This document shows, one piece after another, positions 2,240 through 59,815 of a stretch of DNA of 64,000 nt; position 1 is the stretch's first letter; each line of letters starts with the position of its first letter. This DNA comes from Rhodanobacter sp. LX-99 (lineage in GTDB: Bacteria; Pseudomonadota; Gammaproteobacteria; Xanthomonadales; Rhodanobacteraceae): the NCBI RefSeq assembly GCF_018599185.1, contig NZ_JAHFVL010000002.1:62001-126000 (forward strand), read 5' to 3'. The notes beneath the pieces are model-generated. The model saw nothing but the letters and a program-made list of their open reading frames with translations. It had not been told where the DNA came from and did not search any database. Both the position numbers and the translations under genes were made by a program.

Positions 2240-4252
2240 ATGACGCATCGGATGACACTGAAGTCAGACCTCGGTGACAAACTGCTGCCTGCGAGCCTGT
2301 CGGGCAGCGAGCAGTTGGGGAAGCTTTTTTCCTACCAGTTGAAGCTGCTCAGCAAGGACAGCGAAGTCAAGCTTCTTCCCCTGCTCGGCAGTTCGATGAC
2401 GGTGGCGTTCGAGTCGGACGGCTACAAGCGCCACTTCAACGGCATGGTTTCGGAAATTTCCCAGACCGGGTTCGAGAGCTACAAGGAAGAGCGTTACGCC
2501 GAGTACGCGGTGACGCTGGTGCCCAAGGCATGGCTGCTGCTGCACAAGGTGGATTGCCGCATCTACCTCAAGATGTCGGTGCCCGACATCGTCAAGACCG
2601 TGCTGTCCGAAATCGGCTATGGCGACGTCAAGCTGAGCCTCAGCGGAAACTACTCGCCGCGCGAATACTGCGTGCAGTACCGCGAGGATTACTTCAACTT
2701 CATCAGCCGCCTGATGGAGCAGGAAGGCATCTATTATTTCTTCCAGCACACCGACGGCGTGCACACCATGGTGCTGGCGGATTCGCTGGGCGCGCATGCC
2801 ACCACCGGGGGGTATGAGGAACTGCCGTACCGGCCGCAATCGGCGGACAGCCGCGCGGCGCTGGAAGTCGCGATCACCGATTTCTCGTCGGCTCGCTCGG
2901 TGCAGACGACCAAGTATTCGCTGACCGACTACGACCCGCTGAAGCCGAAGACCTCGCTGCTGGGGACCGAGGCGATCAGCAATGCCGACGACAACCATCC
3001 GGTGCCCGGCCTCGAGTCGTTCGATTTTCCCGGCGACCACGAGACCGGCGATGCCGGCAAGCACTACGCGCAGGTTCGCCTCGAGGCGATCAACGTGCCC
3101 CAGTCGCAGGGCTCGGGTTCGACCAACGCCCCCGGCCTGCTGACCGGCGCGTTGTTCAAGCTGACGAAATTCCCGCGCGCCGAACTGAACCAGGAGTACC
3201 TGGTCACCGGCTCGACCGTGCACATCGAGAATGCCGCGCGCACCTCCGGGCAGCAGGGCGGCGAGTTGTTCTTCTGCAACTTTTCGGTGATCCGGAGCCG
3301 GCAGCCGTTCCGCACCCTGCCGACCGCCGTGAAGCCGATGATCGTGGGCCTGCAGACGGCCGTGGTGGCGGGCAGCGACAAGGCAGAAGACATCGCGGTG
3401 GACAAGTACGGGCGCATCCAGGTGACGTTCCACTGGAACAAGCCGGACAAGAAGAACGCGCACATTTCCTGCCCGGTCAGGGTGGCCTCGTCATGGGCCG
3501 GCAAGAACTGGGGCGCGGTGCACATCCCCAGGGTCGGCCAGGAAGTGGTGGTCAGCTTTCTGGAGGGCGACCCGGACCGGCCGCTGGTCATCGGCAGCGT
3601 CTACAACGCCGACAACATGCCGCCGTACGCGCTGCCCGACAACAAGACCCAGAGCGGCATCAAGAGCCGCAGCCACGAGGGCGGCGCCGCGGCGGATTTC
3701 AACGAGATCCGCTTCGAGGACAAGAAGGGCAGCGAGGAGCTGTTCCTGCACGCGCAGAAGGACATGCGCGAGGAAGTGGAGAACGACCACTTCGTGCAGA
3801 TCGATCACGACGAGACGATCACGGTCAAGAACGACCAGACCGAGGAGGTCAAGCACGACCGCAAGACCAAGGTCGGCAACGACGACAAGCTCGACGTCAC
3901 CCAGAACGGCACGACCACGATCGGGCAGAAATTCAAGCTCAGCGCCGGCACCGAGATCGAACTGGTCACCGGCGCCTCCAGCATCGTCATGAAAAGCGAC
4001 GGAACGATCGAGATCAAGGGCGTCAACATCAAGGTTACCGGCAGCATGGGCGTGAAAGTCGAGGGCCAGGTCGAAGTCGGCATCAAGGCCGGCGCCACGA
4101 TGGATATTGGTGCGGGGGCCTCGCTGAAGATGCATTCCGATGCCATGCTCGAGGTGGCGGGCGGCGCCATGGCGACCGTGAAGGGGCCCATGCTGACGCT
4201 CAAGGGCGACGGCATGGCGCAGTTGTCCGGCGGCCTGATCATGATTGGCTAA
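2240..4252 (+). CDS. vgrG: Type VI secretion spike protein VgrG/TssI
   Basis: The 670-residue protein is a VgrG, the trimeric spike on the Hcp tube. The N-terminal phage gp27-like part covers roughly residues 1-370 (EYCVQYREDYFNFISRLMEQ is typical). A gp5/OB-fold part follows (DKYGRIQVTFHW, RVASSWAGKNWGAVHIPRVG, SFLEGDPDRPLVIGSVYNA). The C-terminus is a DUF2345-type beta-helical extension of short repeats ending LSGGLIMIG. Its length is that of a plain VgrG with no added toxin domain. The ATG at 2240 has a GGGGGAGA ribosome-binding site about 7 bases upstream. A TATGAT box near 2180 could be part of a promoter, but its -35 is poor. The next gene starts 15 bases after the stop. Confidence 0.96.
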   Translation: MTHRMTLKSDLGDKLLPASLSGSEQLGKLFSYQLKLLSKDSEVKLLPLLGSSMTVAFESDGYKRHFNGMVSEISQTGFESYKEERYAEYAVTLVPKAWLLLHKVDCRIYLKMSVPDIVKTVLSEIGYGDVKLSLSGNYSPREYCVQYREDYFNFISRLMEQEGIYYFFQHTDGVHTMVLADSLGAHATTGGYEELPYRPQSADSRAALEVAITDFSSARSVQTTKYSLTDYDPLKPKTSLLGTEAISNADDNHPVPGLESFDFPGDHETGDAGKHYAQVRLEAINVPQSQGSGSTNAPGLLTGALFKLTKFPRAELNQEYLVTGSTVHIENAARTSGQQGGELFFCNFSVIRSRQPFRTLPTAVKPMIVGLQTAVVAGSDKAEDIAVDKYGRIQVTFHWNKPDKKNAHISCPVRVASSWAGKNWGAVHIPRVGQEVVVSFLEGDPDRPLVIGSVYNADNMPPYALPDNKTQSGIKSRSHEGGAAADFNEIRFEDKKGSEELFLHAQKDMREEVENDHFVQIDHDETITVKNDQTEEVKHDRKTKVGNDDKLDVTQNGTTTIGQKFKLSAGTEIELVTGASSIVMKSDGTIEIKGVNIKVTGSMGVKVEGQVEVGIKAGATMDIGAGASLKMHSDAMLEVAGGAMATVKGPMLTLKGDGMAQLSGGLIMIG

Positions 4253-4267
4253 CGGGAGGGGACGCAG

Positions 4268-4816
4268 ATGTCAGGAATCGTGCAGGCGTCGATCCAGATG
4301 GAATTGTCCGAGCAGGCCAATGCCTTGCTGCGGTCGGAGATGACGGCGCCGGTTGCCGTTCGGGCCCTGGTCGATGCCGGCCAGGTGCAGGACGCCTTGA
4401 AGCTGATCGCCCGGATGTTGCCAAAGCGCTACGCCGTGGCATGGCTGTGCCAGTGCGCGCGCGACCAGGCGCTGAACCCCGAAGACAGGGCCGGTGCCTC
4501 GCTGGCGGAAAAATGGGTGCGCGAGCCGAACGAAAGCAATCGACGCGCAGCGTTCGAGTTCGCCAATGCCGGCGGCTACAAGTCGACCGGAGCGTGGCTG
4601 GCCGCCGCCGCCGGATGGTCCGGTGGCAGCATGGCGCCGGCCTCGCAGGAAACCCCGGTGCCGCCACCGGACCACTTGACTGCATGTGCGGTGGTGGCCG
4701 GGATCAACATGCTGGCCGCACTGGTGGCGGAGAAGTTCGAGGCCCGCCGCGTCGGATTCATCGAGCCGGCGATGACCCTGCTCAATGCGGGAGGTGCCGC
4801 TGCGGGCGGGGCCTGA
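4268..4816 (+). CDS. DUF6931-like T6SS-associated protein
   Basis: The 182-residue protein has no signal peptide and is mostly alpha-helical. The N-terminal half reads SEQANALLRSEMTAPVAVRALVDAGQVQDALKLI in overlapping stretches and contains KRYAVAWLCQCARD; the middle has AAFEFANAGGYKSTGAWLAAAAGWSGGSM, and a short hydrophobic helix follows (LTACAVVAGINMLAALVAEK). This organisation resembles the DUF6931 family, found beside vgrG and FHA genes in T6SS loci; the match is from memory. It follows vgrG by 15 bases with a GGGAGGGGACGC ribosome-binding site, so it is co-transcribed with it. It may be an adaptor or chaperone for the spike, but this rests on position. The biochemical role is unknown. 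Confidence 0.65.
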   Translation: MSGIVQASIQMELSEQANALLRSEMTAPVAVRALVDAGQVQDALKLIARMLPKRYAVAWLCQCARDQALNPEDRAGASLAEKWVREPNESNRRAAFEFANAGGYKSTGAWLAAAAGWSGGSMAPASQETPVPPPDHLTACAVVAGINMLAALVAEKFEARRVGFIEPAMTLLNAGGAAAGGA

Positions 4817-56480: not shown

Positions 56481-56507
56481 CGATTGATTTCCTCCGTACC
56501 CTTATTT
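56481..56507. repeat. 27-bp dispersed repeat, copy 2
   Basis: The bases beginning CGATTGATTTCCTCCGTACC match 55536-55562 with three mismatches in the same orientation. The copy overlaps the last six bases of the OsmC-like gene. The two copies flank the MAPEG and YCII genes. Confidence 0.6.
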
Positions 56508-56918
56508 GCTCGCGGGCGTATCCGCAACCAGGGTCACTGGCACCCCCGAGCGGACGGTATTGTGCACCTCGGCCACGGCATCGGTGTGCCGAAGCAGCTG
56601 TGCGATGGCGGACGGAGCAGTTGGGGATGTCACCTTGGCCCGATACCGGATATCGCTGGCCGCCAAGCCAACGCCAGGGAAGTCGGCCGTGGCTTCGACC
56701 TCGACCGCGGCCAAGCTGATACCCAGGCGAGACGCCTCTCGGTAAAGGTCATTGCAATAGCAAGTGGCCAAGGCAAGCAGCAGGAACTCGCCGCCATTGA
56801 CGCCGGAACCCTGGCCGGAACTTTTGGGTGGAATGGCCAGGCTTTGACTGGCGCTGCCGGTGCGGACCGAGACGACGAACCCCGTTCCAGAGTTCCTGAC
56901 GATCGCCGAGATCTCCAC
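56502..56918 (-). CDS. OsmC-family peroxiredoxin-like protein
   Basis: The 138-residue protein has the OsmC fold. The second-helix cysteine motif is FLLLALATCYCNDLYREASR, with a Cys at the usual place; an N-terminal IPPKSSGQGSGVNGGEFL precedes it. OsmC proteins reduce organic hydroperoxides with paired cysteines, but the second conserved cysteine is not obvious here, so activity is uncertain. The start is GTG at 56918 with GGAGG 6 bases upstream, and the gene lies just beyond the last attC site. It is probably chromosomal flank rather than a cassette, because no attC follows it. Confidence 0.85.
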   Translation of the reverse strand: MEISAIVRNSGTGFVVSVRTGSASQSLAIPPKSSGQGSGVNGGEFLLLALATCYCNDLYREASRLGISLAAVEVEATADFPGVGLAASDIRYRAKVTSPTAPSAIAQLLRHTDAVAEVHNTVRSGVPVTLVADTPASK

Positions 56919-56946: not shown

Positions 56947-57003
56947 GCGTGACGCTGGGGTTAAGCGGCGGCGAAGCCGTCCGCCTTGAACGAGATGTTA
57001 GAC
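56947..57003 (-). other. Integron attC site, terminal, with degenerate core
   Basis: The 57 bases match the two good attC sites in this cluster along almost their whole length: TTAAGCGGCGGCGAAGCCGT, then CCGCCTTGAACGA. On the minus strand the first core is GTCTAAC, and the second reads GTCACGC instead of GTTAGGC. The pattern matches the aadA1-type attC in the same orientation. Loss of the second core site would block recombination at this edge. Confidence 0.85.
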
Positions 57004-57004
57004 G

Positions 57005-57409
57005 TCATGGCACTTCGACTGGGCACACAGCTGGGCTTGCAACATATATTTTTGAGTTAACACGCATGACGTCGGCCCGGTACGCTTGGATGTTGTCGAC
57101 AACCCCAGCCTCGACAACGGTGAGCAAATTGGTCTCTTTGCAAAGCTCCAACTCTACGTAAGAACCGCTTGGACCGCTGCTGCCTGCAAAAGTGACAAAG
57201 ACCAGATGCCGATCGTGAGCAGCTATGGCAGATGAGACCAGCCCATGGGCAGCGTCCGTGTAGCCACTTTCATCCGGATGTTGCCGATTGAAAGCGCTCA
57301 GGTACGCACGAGAGAGATCAATTGCCAAGCGCTGATCGTAGTGAAACACATCAGCTGCGGAAGTACTGAAGCTGAGGAAAATCGCAAGGGCTGCAAGAAG
57401 GTTCTTCAT
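57005..57409 (-). CDS. Cassette gene: secreted protein of unknown function
   Basis: The 134-residue product has a signal peptide (NLLAALAIFLSFSTSAADVF) and a small mature domain with one Cys in ELELCKETN and another in SPAVCPVEV, which could pair. I do not recognise a family. Its stop is one base from the attC at 56947-57003 and its start is 3 bases after the next attC, so it fills an integron cassette. Its ribosome-binding site would be the TTAGGC of the attC core. Codon use is plainer and more AT-rich than in the surrounding genes. Confidence 0.75.
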   Translation of the reverse strand: MKNLLAALAIFLSFSTSAADVFHYDQRLAIDLSRAYLSAFNRQHPDESGYTDAAHGLVSSAIAAHDRHLVFVTFAGSSGPSGSYVELELCKETNLLTVVEAGVVDNIQAYRADVMRVNSKIYVASPAVCPVEVP

Positions 57410-57412
57410 GAT

Positions 57413-57469
57413 GCCTAACGCTAGAGTTAAGCGGCGGCGTAGCCGTCCACCTTAAACGGGTGGTTAGGG
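57413..57469 (-). other. Integron attC site
   Basis: This 57-base site has both core sites, GCCTAAC (57413-57419) and GTTAGGG (57463-57469), with the paired inner arms TTAAGCGGCGGCG and ACCTTAAAC. On the minus strand it reads CCCTAAC...GCGTTAGGC, so it belongs downstream of the gene to its right. It is nearly the same length and sequence as the site at 58171-58227. Confidence 0.9.
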
Positions 57470-57510
57470 CAGCTCGCGAATGCAATTTCGGCTTGAACGC
57501 ATCGTTAGGC
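57470..57510 (-). other. Half attC site or gene-less mini-cassette
   Basis: GTTAGGC at 57504-57510, preceded by GGCTTGAACGCATC, forms the outer arm of another attC; the matching inner half is missing and sequence runs directly into the complete attC at 57413-57469. This is what remains when a cassette gene and half its attC are deleted. It sits two bases after the stop codon of the next gene. Confidence 0.6.
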
Positions 57511-57511
57511 C

Positions 57512-58165
57512 TCACCTTACGAGAGCCAATAGCTCGTTTGGAATAGTGCTCATTACAACACCAACTGCAAGCCATGCTGCGCCGAGAGCAGCGAGGTGCA
57601 GCCCATCGGTAGAGGCAGCCTCAATCTTCAAATGTAGCTGCCGATCACCCTCAACTCTGCTATCTCTTTCGTTCCTAAGGTTTTGCTCAGATGCGCGTAC
57701 ATGCGCATCAAACTCAGATTCGGCCTGATCAACACGACTGCGGAGGCCGGCCAAATTCTGCTCCGCGGCTGCAAGGCGCGACTCTATTGTCGGTTCGGAT
57801 CCTGGCCCCCTCCAAGCATAGCCCTTAGCGGAACTGGTTAGCCACAAGCTACTGGAGCAAGAAGCGGAGGCCACGTGGGGCCTTAACCCCGGTATCGATT
57901 TGAACCAAGTCCGAACCAGTTGTAGAAAGCTTGGCTTGCCAAACATACGGCGGGTATCCCGAATTCCGACAGCTGCTGCGCTGATTCCAAGCAGCTGCAG
58001 TACAAGCCCGCTGATTCGTACACTCGGCTCCGTTTGGACGTACAAGAGTGAGGCCAAAAGCGCTAGGGCAATGACCGAAGCGGTGAATATGACTAAGCGT
58101 GCGCGCATCAACCACGCTAGTGCACGAGAAGGCCAGCGCATAATGAGTGTAATGAAGTCTTCCAT
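57512..58165 (-). CDS. Cassette gene: membrane protein with coiled coil
   Basis: The 217-residue protein has two N-terminal membrane segments (LVIFTASVIALALLASLLYV and SGLVLQLLGISAAAVGI), a central charged coiled coil (ESRLAAAEQNLAGLRSRVDQ) and a last membrane segment (LHLAALGAAWLAVGVVMSTI). No family is recognised. The start lies 5 bases from the attC core, using TTAGGCCTCAC as a leader. The product is the largest of the three cassette genes, and its role is unknown. Confidence 0.75.
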   Translation of the reverse strand: MEDFITLIMRWPSRALAWLMRARLVIFTASVIALALLASLLYVQTEPSVRISGLVLQLLGISAAAVGIRDTRRMFGKPSFLQLVRTWFKSIPGLRPHVASASCSSSLWLTSSAKGYAWRGPGSEPTIESRLAAAEQNLAGLRSRVDQAESEFDAHVRASEQNLRNERDSRVEGDRQLHLKIEAASTDGLHLAALGAAWLAVGVVMSTIPNELLALVR

Positions 58166-58170
58166 GTGAG

Positions 58171-58227
58171 GCCTAACGCTGGAGTTAAGCGGCGGCGAAG
58201 CCGTCCGCCTTGAACGATCTGTTAGGC
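58171..58227 (-). other. Integron attC site
   Basis: This is the best attC of the cluster: GCCTAAC (58171-58177) and GTTAGGC (58221-58227), with inner arms GGAGTTAAGCGGCGGCG and CCGTCCGCCTTGAACGAT. The two halves fold into the usual imperfect hairpin. Read on the minus strand it follows the gene at 58238-58615. The sequence resembles the aadA1 attC. Confidence 0.93.
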
Positions 58228-58237
58228 AGGCGCACGC

Positions 58238-58615
58238 TCAATGCGAAGCCACGATTTGCACTAGCAGTATCTTTAGTAAGAAGAAAACTACGCCGCCAGC
58301 GACGAGCGGAAGAACGATTGACATAAACATGTTGCCAATGCGAGTGCTGAACGGATCTTCGATGTATCGCCACGCCAAATTGGAACACAGAACACCGGTG
58401 TAAATACTAAGCGCTAGGCCAAGGCCGATCCACACCACTCTTGCAGCCATGAAGTGGAATTTAACATCCGCGTACTGAAAGACCGCGATGACAGCGAGCC
58501 ACTCTGCATACTGAAACAGGACGGGGACGCCGTGCATTACCTTGCGCGTAAAGTCGGGTGCCTGAACCACAGTCCCGTTCTTTGTTACTTTGTCGAGCTC
58601 CCCCGGGTTCGCCAT
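58238..58615 (-). CDS. Cassette gene: three-segment membrane protein
   Basis: The 125-residue protein has about three membrane segments (FQYAEWLAVIAVFQYADVKF, VVWIGLGLALSIYTGVLC, MFMSIVLPLVAGGVVFFLLK). I do not recognise a family. It lies between the attC at 58171-58227 and a core GCCTAAC at 58626-58632. Its ATG (at 58615) is 10 bases after that core. It is the first cassette in the array on the minus strand. Confidence 0.75.
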   Translation of the reverse strand: MANPGELDKVTKNGTVVQAPDFTRKVMHGVPVLFQYAEWLAVIAVFQYADVKFHFMAARVVWIGLGLALSIYTGVLCSNLAWRYIEDPFSTRIGNMFMSIVLPLVAGGVVFFLLKILLVQIVASH

Positions 58616-58625
58616 CGCTTTAAAG

Positions 58626-58632
58626 GCCTAAC
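58626..58632 (-). other. Cassette-array boundary (attC core fragment)
   Basis: GCCTAAC followed by GCTATGTAG has the core site but no attC inner arms. It marks the upstream edge of the array. The 157 bases between it and the hydrolase gene stop at 58790 contain no integrase gene and no convincing attI. Confidence 0.6.
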
Positions 58633-58789
58633 GCTATGTAGATTTCAAAGTGCAGTGTAATCCTGCAACCTATCCCTGTCCGGTGCGCTTGGTGATGAGG
58701 GGCTGACTACGTTGAATCAATGGGTTGAGCTGCCTCAGGCAGCCTAATCCCGCAGTCTAACCCTGCGATGTTGAGCATCGGCGTTCGCC

Positions 58790-59815
58790 TCATTCGGCCT
58801 CTACTTTCCGCAGGAAGCCGGTCAGCCCTACAAAGTAGGTCTGCTGGTCGTCATACATCGCCATGTGGCTCCCCTTCGGGCACAGCAGGAACTGCCCGTG
58901 CGGCAGCTTCTTCGCCATGCCAGCCATGTACTTCGGGTCCATCGTGTCGTGCTGCGCGCCGATCACCAGGGTGGGGACGGTGATGCGGTGCAGGTCCTTG
59001 CTGCGGTCCCAGTTCAGCAGGCGGCCGCTGGCGCCCAGTTCGCTGGGGCCCTGCATCAAGGTGTAGATCTGCTGGTTGATGTGGCCGAACGAGCGGGTCA
59101 CCGGCTCGGGCCATTGCGCCGAGGGCATGCGCAGTACGTGCTGCTCGTAGTGCATCGGGGTGAGGATGGCCATGTAGCGCGGGTCGTCGGTGCGGTGTTC
59201 GGCTTCGAGCTTCTGCACTTCGGCGAGCTGTTCCTGATCCATCGCCGGCATCAGCACCTTGTGCGCGTAGTCGTTGTAGGCGGGGATCGAGTCGACCATG
59301 TTGGAGATCACCAGGCACTTCAGGTGCTGCTGGTATTTCAGCGCGTATTCGATGGCGAGCACGCCGCCCCAGGAGTGGCCGAGCAGGCAGAAGTTGCCCT
59401 TGTCCAGGTGCAGCGCCTGGCGCACCTGTTCCACTTCGTCGACGTAGCGGTCGATGGTCCACAGCGACTTATCTTTCGGTTGATCGCTGTAGGCCGAACC
59501 GAGCTGGTCGTAGTAGTAGTACTCGATGCCGGCGCCCGGGAAGTAGCTGTCGAACGCTTCGAAGTATTCGTGGGTGGCGCCGGGGCCGCCGTGCAGCAGC
59601 AACACTTTCAGCTTCGGGTTGTTGCCCACGCGCTTGGTCCAGACGCGGAACGTGCCCCGGGGCGTGGCGATCGGGATCATCTTCACGCCGCCGGCGAGCA
59701 CGTCGTCGCGGCCGCTGTTGTCGAAGTAGCCGGCGCCTGGTGCGGTGCGGGCGGGCGCGGTGACTGCTGCCAGCAAGAGCAGGCCGGCCAGGAAAATGGT
59801 GATGCGCGGTTTCAT
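58790..59815 (-). CDS. Exported proline iminopeptidase-family alpha/beta hydrolase
   Basis: The 341-residue protein has a signal peptide (TIFLAGLLLLAAVTAPARTA). The alpha/beta hydrolase core has the oxyanion motif LLLHGGPGATHEY, the nucleophile elbow LLGHSWGGVLAIE, the acid in VIGAQHDTMDPKYM and the catalytic His in CPKGSHMAMYDDQQ. HGGPG places it with proline iminopeptidases, which remove N-terminal proline from peptides, but many relatives act on other amides. The signal peptide puts it in the periplasm, whereas classic members are cytoplasmic. The start is ATG at 59815. Confidence 0.93.
   Translation of the reverse strand: MKPRITIFLAGLLLLAAVTAPARTAPGAGYFDNSGRDDVLAGGVKMIPIATPRGTFRVWTKRVGNNPKLKVLLLHGGPGATHEYFEAFDSYFPGAGIEYYYYDQLGSAYSDQPKDKSLWTIDRYVDEVEQVRQALHLDKGNFCLLGHSWGGVLAIEYALKYQQHLKCLVISNMVDSIPAYNDYAHKVLMPAMDQEQLAEVQKLEAEHRTDDPRYMAILTPMHYEQHVLRMPSAQWPEPVTRSFGHINQQIYTLMQGPSELGASGRLLNWDRSKDLHRITVPTLVIGAQHDTMDPKYMAGMAKKLPHGQFLLCPKGSHMAMYDDQQTYFVGLTGFLRKVEAE

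Follow-up and report, generated by a model that had tools for sequence, protein, structure and literature searches.

The window, a 64,000-nucleotide stretch (G000:C2:62001-126000) from a draft genome totalling 3.83 Mb in six contigs, carries on its minus strand an array of three gene cassettes, each ending in an attC site: 58227-58171 for the first cassette, 57469-57413 for the second and 57003-56947 for the third, where the terminal site has a degenerate last core (GTCACGC). All three sites proposed in the initial annotation were recovered by an independent profile built only from 12 attC sites of the genome's intI-linked array (E=2.2e-19, 5.6e-16 and 9.3e-17, respectively), the next-best match of this profile in the window having E=0.09. 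Since a further model, R1, contains the attC sites of the window and is no independent test, the 12-site profile alone serves as such. On folding, the three strands moderately outperformed dinucleotide shuffles (z from -1.6 to -2.8). The half site that had been described at 57510-57485, after the second cassette gene on the same strand, fared less well, as it is matched only weakly by the profile (E=0.18) and folds no better than shuffles (z from +0.2 to +0.6); its assignment as a remnant of attC is suggestive only. The boundary core GTTAGGC is present at 58632-58626, and the three predicted genes (125, 217 and 134 amino acids) do lie on the strand of the attC sites. No intI gene was found in the window, and the genome-wide search returned one intI above the family cut-off, located on another contig. 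With at least two clustered attC sites and no intI nearby, the array is by definition a CALIN, as proposed initially; the term is said to go back to Cury et al. 2016. The arrangement of a complete integron, in which intI lies beside attI and is divergent from the array, was not found here. The array has a G+C content of 54.3%, as against 67.1% for the window, and Rfam models gave zero matches in the window at gathering thresholds. Beyond the terminal attC site lies an OsmC-like gene (56502-56918, minus strand; OsmC domain above cut-off), which falls outside the stretch aligning with the downstream flank of four relatives; it could be a one-time cassette or the product of an independent insertion.

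The first cassette contains gene 3 (58238-58615, minus strand; 125 amino acids), whose product has hydrophobic stretches and belongs to no family; 10 proteins were among the matches listed for it, none of them functionally named. Gene 2, in the second cassette (57512-58165, minus strand; 217 amino acids), encodes a predicted helical protein, which, judging from its structure model (helical, pLDDT 69.7, pTM 0.37), is probably membrane-anchored with a long helix; no function could be derived from the model. This gene was found in only one of 45 Rhodanobacter genomes (E<=1e-20), and the 74 related proteins among the matches listed include a few named as coming from Luteimonas, Zoogloeaceae or Modicisalibacter. 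Gene 1, in the third and last cassette (57005-57409, minus strand; 134 amino acids), has a signal-peptide-like N-terminus and 33 proteins among the matches listed; its structure model (pLDDT 66, best PDB match at E=0.083) likewise suggested no function. The initial statement that the three products belong to no recognised family was borne out by Pfam, NCBIfam and PADLOC, none of which gave a match above cut-off. For the three cassette proteins, Pfam yielded sub-cut-off matches only (the best being DUF998 for gene 2, E=0.0056), NCBIfam nothing at E<=0.01 and PADLOC nothing at E<=10. The suggested defence role of the cassette products found no support.

According to the initial annotation, no attI-like site exists beyond the array. 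This was wrong, as a predicted type A attI, with four direct repeats and a crossover core and with no adjoining intI, occupies positions 58763-58628 (minus strand), directly before the first cassette. A hidden Markov model of four intI-linked attI sites from other Rhodanobacter genomes has its sole match in the 64-kb window at 58762-58632 of the minus strand (E=4.5e-22), and this match spans 131 bp and ends at the start of the first cassette. In a whole-genome search with the sequence-only model R2, made from the same four sites, the window site was found at E=9.2e-17, and the type B and type C attI profiles failed to match the window at E<=1. The putative repeats, all on the minus strand, are GGGTTAGACTGC (58752-58763, a block conserved across type A sites), GGGATTAGGCTGC (58739-58751), GGGATAGGTTGC (58665-58676) and AGGATTACACTGC (58652-58664), followed by the core (58626-58649), which may be written TTTGAAATCTACATAGCG|TTAGGC, contains GTTAGGC and has its predicted crossover between G58632 and T58631. 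In such sites the conserved blocks are the core and the GATTAGGCTGC-like repeats, arranged as two pairs, with spacers that are poorly conserved. Cassettes join attI at G|TT of the core and in the same orientation; behind the attI of another genome, G021, cassette homology begins precisely at the crossover point. On its sequence and on this junction, the identification of the window site as attI holds. Among 37 type A-like sites, three show none of the four repeats when two mismatches are permitted, and random stretches from the same loci averaged 0.08. Pairwise BLAST comparisons revealed no sharp left end for type A sites.

The attI site lies at the 3' end of a host gene for a proline-iminopeptidase-family hydrolase (58790-59815, minus strand; TIGR01250 at 324 bits, cut-off 168), which marks the locus and occurs in 10 of 45 genomes of the genus (E<=1e-60). 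Six relatives from the same genus have similar sequence over about 150 bases behind the hydrolase gene, up to a core such as TTTGAAATCTACTTAGCGTTAG, and differ in the DNA beyond it. When loci were clustered on their upstream similarity by single linkage, eight genomes, representing as many species, were found to share the upstream region of the window site; seven of them carry the hydrolase gene itself, and G025 was placed by flanking similarity. None of the eight has an intI match at this locus. Seven are readable downstream, where the first open frames differ, no two of them have 250 bases in common at 75% until the shared chromosomal flank is reached, and attC sites follow in five (L074 and L150 show none). 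On the reading preferred below, this one dock would have received different cassettes from species to species. The GTT of the core has been lost in three of the eight genomes (L074, L150 and L152), which indicates that some of these docks are decaying. Two genomes, G021 and G028, have the hydrolase gene followed by other genes, without a type A attI of the window kind, and a further genome of the genus carries it on a short contig (L033, G011:C400).

Sites of this sort are widespread in the genus. Searching 45 Rhodanobacter genomes with a core pattern and permitting one mismatch, we obtained 83 matches in 31 genomes, against five for the reversed pattern. One of the 83 (G015:C92) lies inside a coding frame and appears to be a chance match. 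For 21 core sites there is a match to intI at 120-207 bp upstream; the other 62 lack one (E<=1e-5, with 1277-1500 upstream bases read). One of the 21 linked sites, L138 (G019:C25), is a type C attI beside fragments of intI only, and is an integron caught in decay. The attI types A, B and C are set by the 130 bases upstream of the core, and each of them stands beside intI in some genome; five of the 83 sites are left untyped by this rule, including the intI-linked site of the genome studied here, which is nevertheless matched by the type B profile. Of the 48 typed orphan sites whose downstream sequence exceeds 1.4 kb, 43 are followed by attC in the same orientation; upstream or reversed, no attC scoring over 15 bits was seen at any of the 83. 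Model R2 gave 64 matches in 33 of the 45 genomes at E<=0.001, six of them adjoining intI; four of these six are the training set.

The survey was also run in the opposite direction, from attC clusters to attI. For this we used eight of the 45 genomes, chosen for few contigs (one to six), with the attC sites of the genome studied here plus the best 150 of 261 matches for the other seven; clusters were cut at 6 kb, a distance of our own choice. The attC sites so listed form 34 clusters, eight near intI and 26 away from it. An attI at the 5' end, within 4 kb and in the right orientation, heads 18 of the 26 listed clusters away from intI, where 0.07 would be expected. The proportion is 12 of 14 for those with at least two listed attC sites and six of 12 for those with a single one. 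Most CALINs in these eight genomes can be accounted for by a docking site that sequence searches are able to locate, and the array in the window is docked at an orphan attI that is one of dozens in the genus.

Similar sites were seen in other genera of the family, in a sample of 20 (16 orphan and four intI-linked) from seven genomes of three genera, which had been chosen for several core matches, with G047, G065, G125 and others left aside. Every one of the 16 orphan sites has attC downstream and is matched at E<=0.01 by one or more of the Rhodanobacter attI profiles, the match being weak for one of them, L211 (E=0.0036). Among 20 named stretches bearing this attI core, 17 belong to Rhodanobacter, two to Lysobacter and one to Luteimonas. 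Across the order, a core pattern occurs in 24 of the 299 genomes sampled, own genus included, the reversed control giving two matches; in the family-wide pattern search, the 59 matches stand against 15 for the reversed pattern, indicating much chance background.

The only intI above the cut-off in the genome under study, at C1:1989263-1989847, scores 266 bits with the cut-off at 265. The C-terminal part of the reading resumes 10 bases on in another frame, and about 50 model positions are missing between the two parts. Given this loss and the frame change (C1:1989263-1990058; L001, L002), the genome's intI is to be regarded as broken. It is divergent from an array of 18 attC sites (C1:1980918-1988578), which are of the same type as those of the window. 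Inspection by eye of this main array revealed two near-identical copies of a cassette that measures about 200 bases and has no evident gene (L007, 11983-12180 and 14540-14737). Two isolated single attC sites lie on the same contig, at C1:634312 and C1:903363, and R2 matches in this genome are, besides the window site, C1:904173, C3:190818 and a partial one at C1:265456. The site at C1:904173 (L197, G000:C1:900000-907000, about 3364-4319) is a second orphan type A attI, heading a large cassette with the single attC site C1:903363. The one at C3:190818 (L135, G000:C3:189440-194961) is a decayed type A attI with the core GGCGCCAA, after which no attC was found; possibly, it is an empty or dead dock. 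The attC site at C1:634312 (L196, 4313-4369) follows a large gene and has no attI profile match within 8 kb, and may possibly reflect an off-target insertion or a lost dock.

Some cassettes are present at more than one dock. G021 carries, as the first cassette behind an orphan type B attI, a copy with 89% identity to the last cassette of the window (57418-56946); G009 has another, equally close to the window cassette, behind an orphan attI of type C, and these two copies are 98% identical to each other. In G021 the homology starts immediately after the attI G, whereas in G009 the preceding attC site is alike too and masks the left end of the homology with the window copy. To the right, the resemblance of the three copies dwindles beyond the last core. 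Between the window and G021, gene 1 differs with dN of 0.065 and dS of 0.30, and is under purifying selection; between G021 and G009, dN (0.020) exceeds dS (0.010), with few changes. Cassettes are also common to intI-linked and orphan arrays, within G027 (430 bp, 96.7%) as well as in G022 (405 bp, 85%) and G009 (361 bp, 88%). With the proposal of the initial annotation that the cassettes came from one chromosomal integron, the attC sites agree in that their type is that of the genome's own chromosomal integron; for the cassettes themselves such a common source is no more than a suggestion. The last cassette is common to orphan arrays of two other species, gene 2 was not found in the other 44 Rhodanobacter genomes at E<=1e-20, and in the comparison with the main array, the two single attC sites and the C3 site of the same genome, nothing but attC matched the window array.

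The best reading of these findings, which we hold to be probable, is that the array was built on an orphan attI dock loaded by IntI, whose action in trans we infer. According to this scheme, a type A attI at the 3' end of the hydrolase gene, with no integrase gene beside it, would be served by IntI made elsewhere in the cell, perhaps, in this lineage, from the integron now found on C1. Such an integrase would recombine circular cassettes into the window attI between G58632 and T58631, which presumes that IntI of another clade is able to use a type A site and that docks may keep receiving cassettes after local intI loss. As intI is broken in this strain, the window array is probably frozen. In favour of loading in trans are the four-site attI profile, with its single match in 64 kb ending at the cassette junction; the R2 and core surveys, where most sites stand without intI and with attC downstream; the eight genomes sharing the locus, none with intI and with varied DNA after the site; the finding of the last cassette behind type B and type C attI in two other species; the sharing of cassettes by linked and orphan arrays of one genome; the excess of attI-headed clusters among those listed over chance expectation; and the orphan sites elsewhere in the family, all of them with attC downstream. 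On the other hand, the genome's own IntI is not only broken but also belongs to a clade linked to type B attI, whereas the window site is of type A, and only six of the 33 genomes with R2 matches have one beside intI. Against the same reading also stand the three of eight cores at the locus that have no GTT, two of them with no attC, the failure to find a sigma-70-like candidate for the cassette promoter Pc around the window attI (no match at 58300-59000, with 0.3 expected in shuffles, for a search covering the sigma-70-like type only), and the eight of the 26 listed clusters away from intI, including six of the 12 singles, for which no attI was found.

A last observation against trans loading, that a stub of the intI start lies upstream of 15 of the 62 orphan sites in the genus (tblastn, E<=0.05), leads to its main rival, the loss of a neighbouring intI. 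The window array would then be what is left of a once complete type A integron from which this gene disappeared, with its cassettes inserted in cis and nothing added in trans since. Such a history would agree with the stubs, seen also at two of the 16 orphan sites in other genera, with the presence of type A attI beside intI in six Rhodanobacter genomes and in G120, of another genus, and with the four other genomes which have, near the same flank as the intI locus of our genome, an attI but no intI (this flank contains a 3080-amino-acid open frame, which resembles a cyclic glucan synthase). Indeed, the stubs, together with the attI sites lacking intI at the locus of the main integron, make it very likely that local intI loss created many docks, and likely that many docks of types B and C arose in this way. 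However, the stubs found in the genus belong to sites of type B, type C or no assigned type, and type A orphan sites show none at E<=0.05. Moreover, not one of the eight genomes has intI at the window locus, and the core of the window attI lies 140 bp from the hydrolase stop codon, while at the four linked type A sites the intI match is 203-205 bp away from the core. To account for the differences among seven species after the site, intI would also have to have been lost in parallel, or else only once and early, after numerous changes had already taken place. We consider such a relic rather unlikely for the window array, though well worth keeping in mind.

Transfer of attI and cassettes from the main integron by a rearrangement appears very improbable. 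Both arrays have attC sites of the same type, but the main attI matches the type B profile (E=1.1e-57) and the window site only that of type A, nothing except attC matches between the two arrays, and the site occupies the same locus in seven other genomes. Least probable of all is an off-target insertion by IntI at an unrelated, attG-like genomic site, for, although intI does exist elsewhere in the genome and single attC sites with no attI found, such as C1:634312, occur, the target in the window matches intI-linked attI over 131 bp (E=4.5e-22) and the attI stands at the same place in seven relatives. The attG hypothesis was abandoned once a conserved site had come to light in the relatives. 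An attG target is neither attI nor attC, and the target in the window matches attI.

Returning to the reading preferred here, that of a dock loaded in trans, we may extend it tentatively, at a little below an even chance, to a distributed integron of Rhodanobacteraceae, in which one integrase would serve several attI docks at fixed loci, with turnover of cassettes. The type A dock measures about 140 bp and showed no stub of intI; it might even have been dispersed as a unit of its own, independently of intI. If IntI works in trans at docks, the integron would be a system of several loci rather than one, and, should the distributed arrangement prove true, new cassettes could be placed in several contexts at once. 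Standard integron annotation seeks intI and attC, and files such arrays as CALINs, leaving their siting unexplained. Findable docks make the origin of CALINs testable and insertion hotspots predictable from sequence.

Among known processes, insertion at attG sites (reportedly Loot et al. 2024, as cited in PMC12444791 and PMC12901181) is said to place cassettes outside the integron, and the case described here differs in that the target is an attI-type site with repeats, at fixed loci. A CALIN is defined as a cluster of attC sites without an integron integrase (PMC8618304, PMC9024848, in the parts available to us), and the window array, with three attC sites and no intI nearby, resembles one. 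It departs from the three origins proposed for CALINs in the part of PMC8618304 available to us, namely off-target insertion, intI loss and rearrangement, in being headed by a recognisable attI; none of the three speaks of an attI that was kept and used again. As attI is, according to the accessible part of PMC9024848, not detected outside class 1, the docks of Rhodanobacter would be invisible to that tool. A search of the open-access literature, covering titles and the openings of abstracts, with subscription journals mostly outside it, gave among the matches listed no description of orphan attI docks. A close parallel is offered by the chromosomal integrons of Xanthomonas, which, as far as the accessible text of PMC12444791 goes, often have a broken intI and have CALINs at a few loci whose positions are shared between species; there, CALINs occur at seven loci, and their conserved positions were read as support for ancestral activity. 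In the portion of that report available to us no attI is mentioned for these loci, whereas the locus in the window is marked by one. Another likeness is to the delta-attI gene cassettes of mobile integrons (PMC12901181, as far as accessible), where attI sequence is likewise found away from intI. In that case, pieces of attI lie within unusual resistance cassettes, while the window attI heads a chromosomal array.
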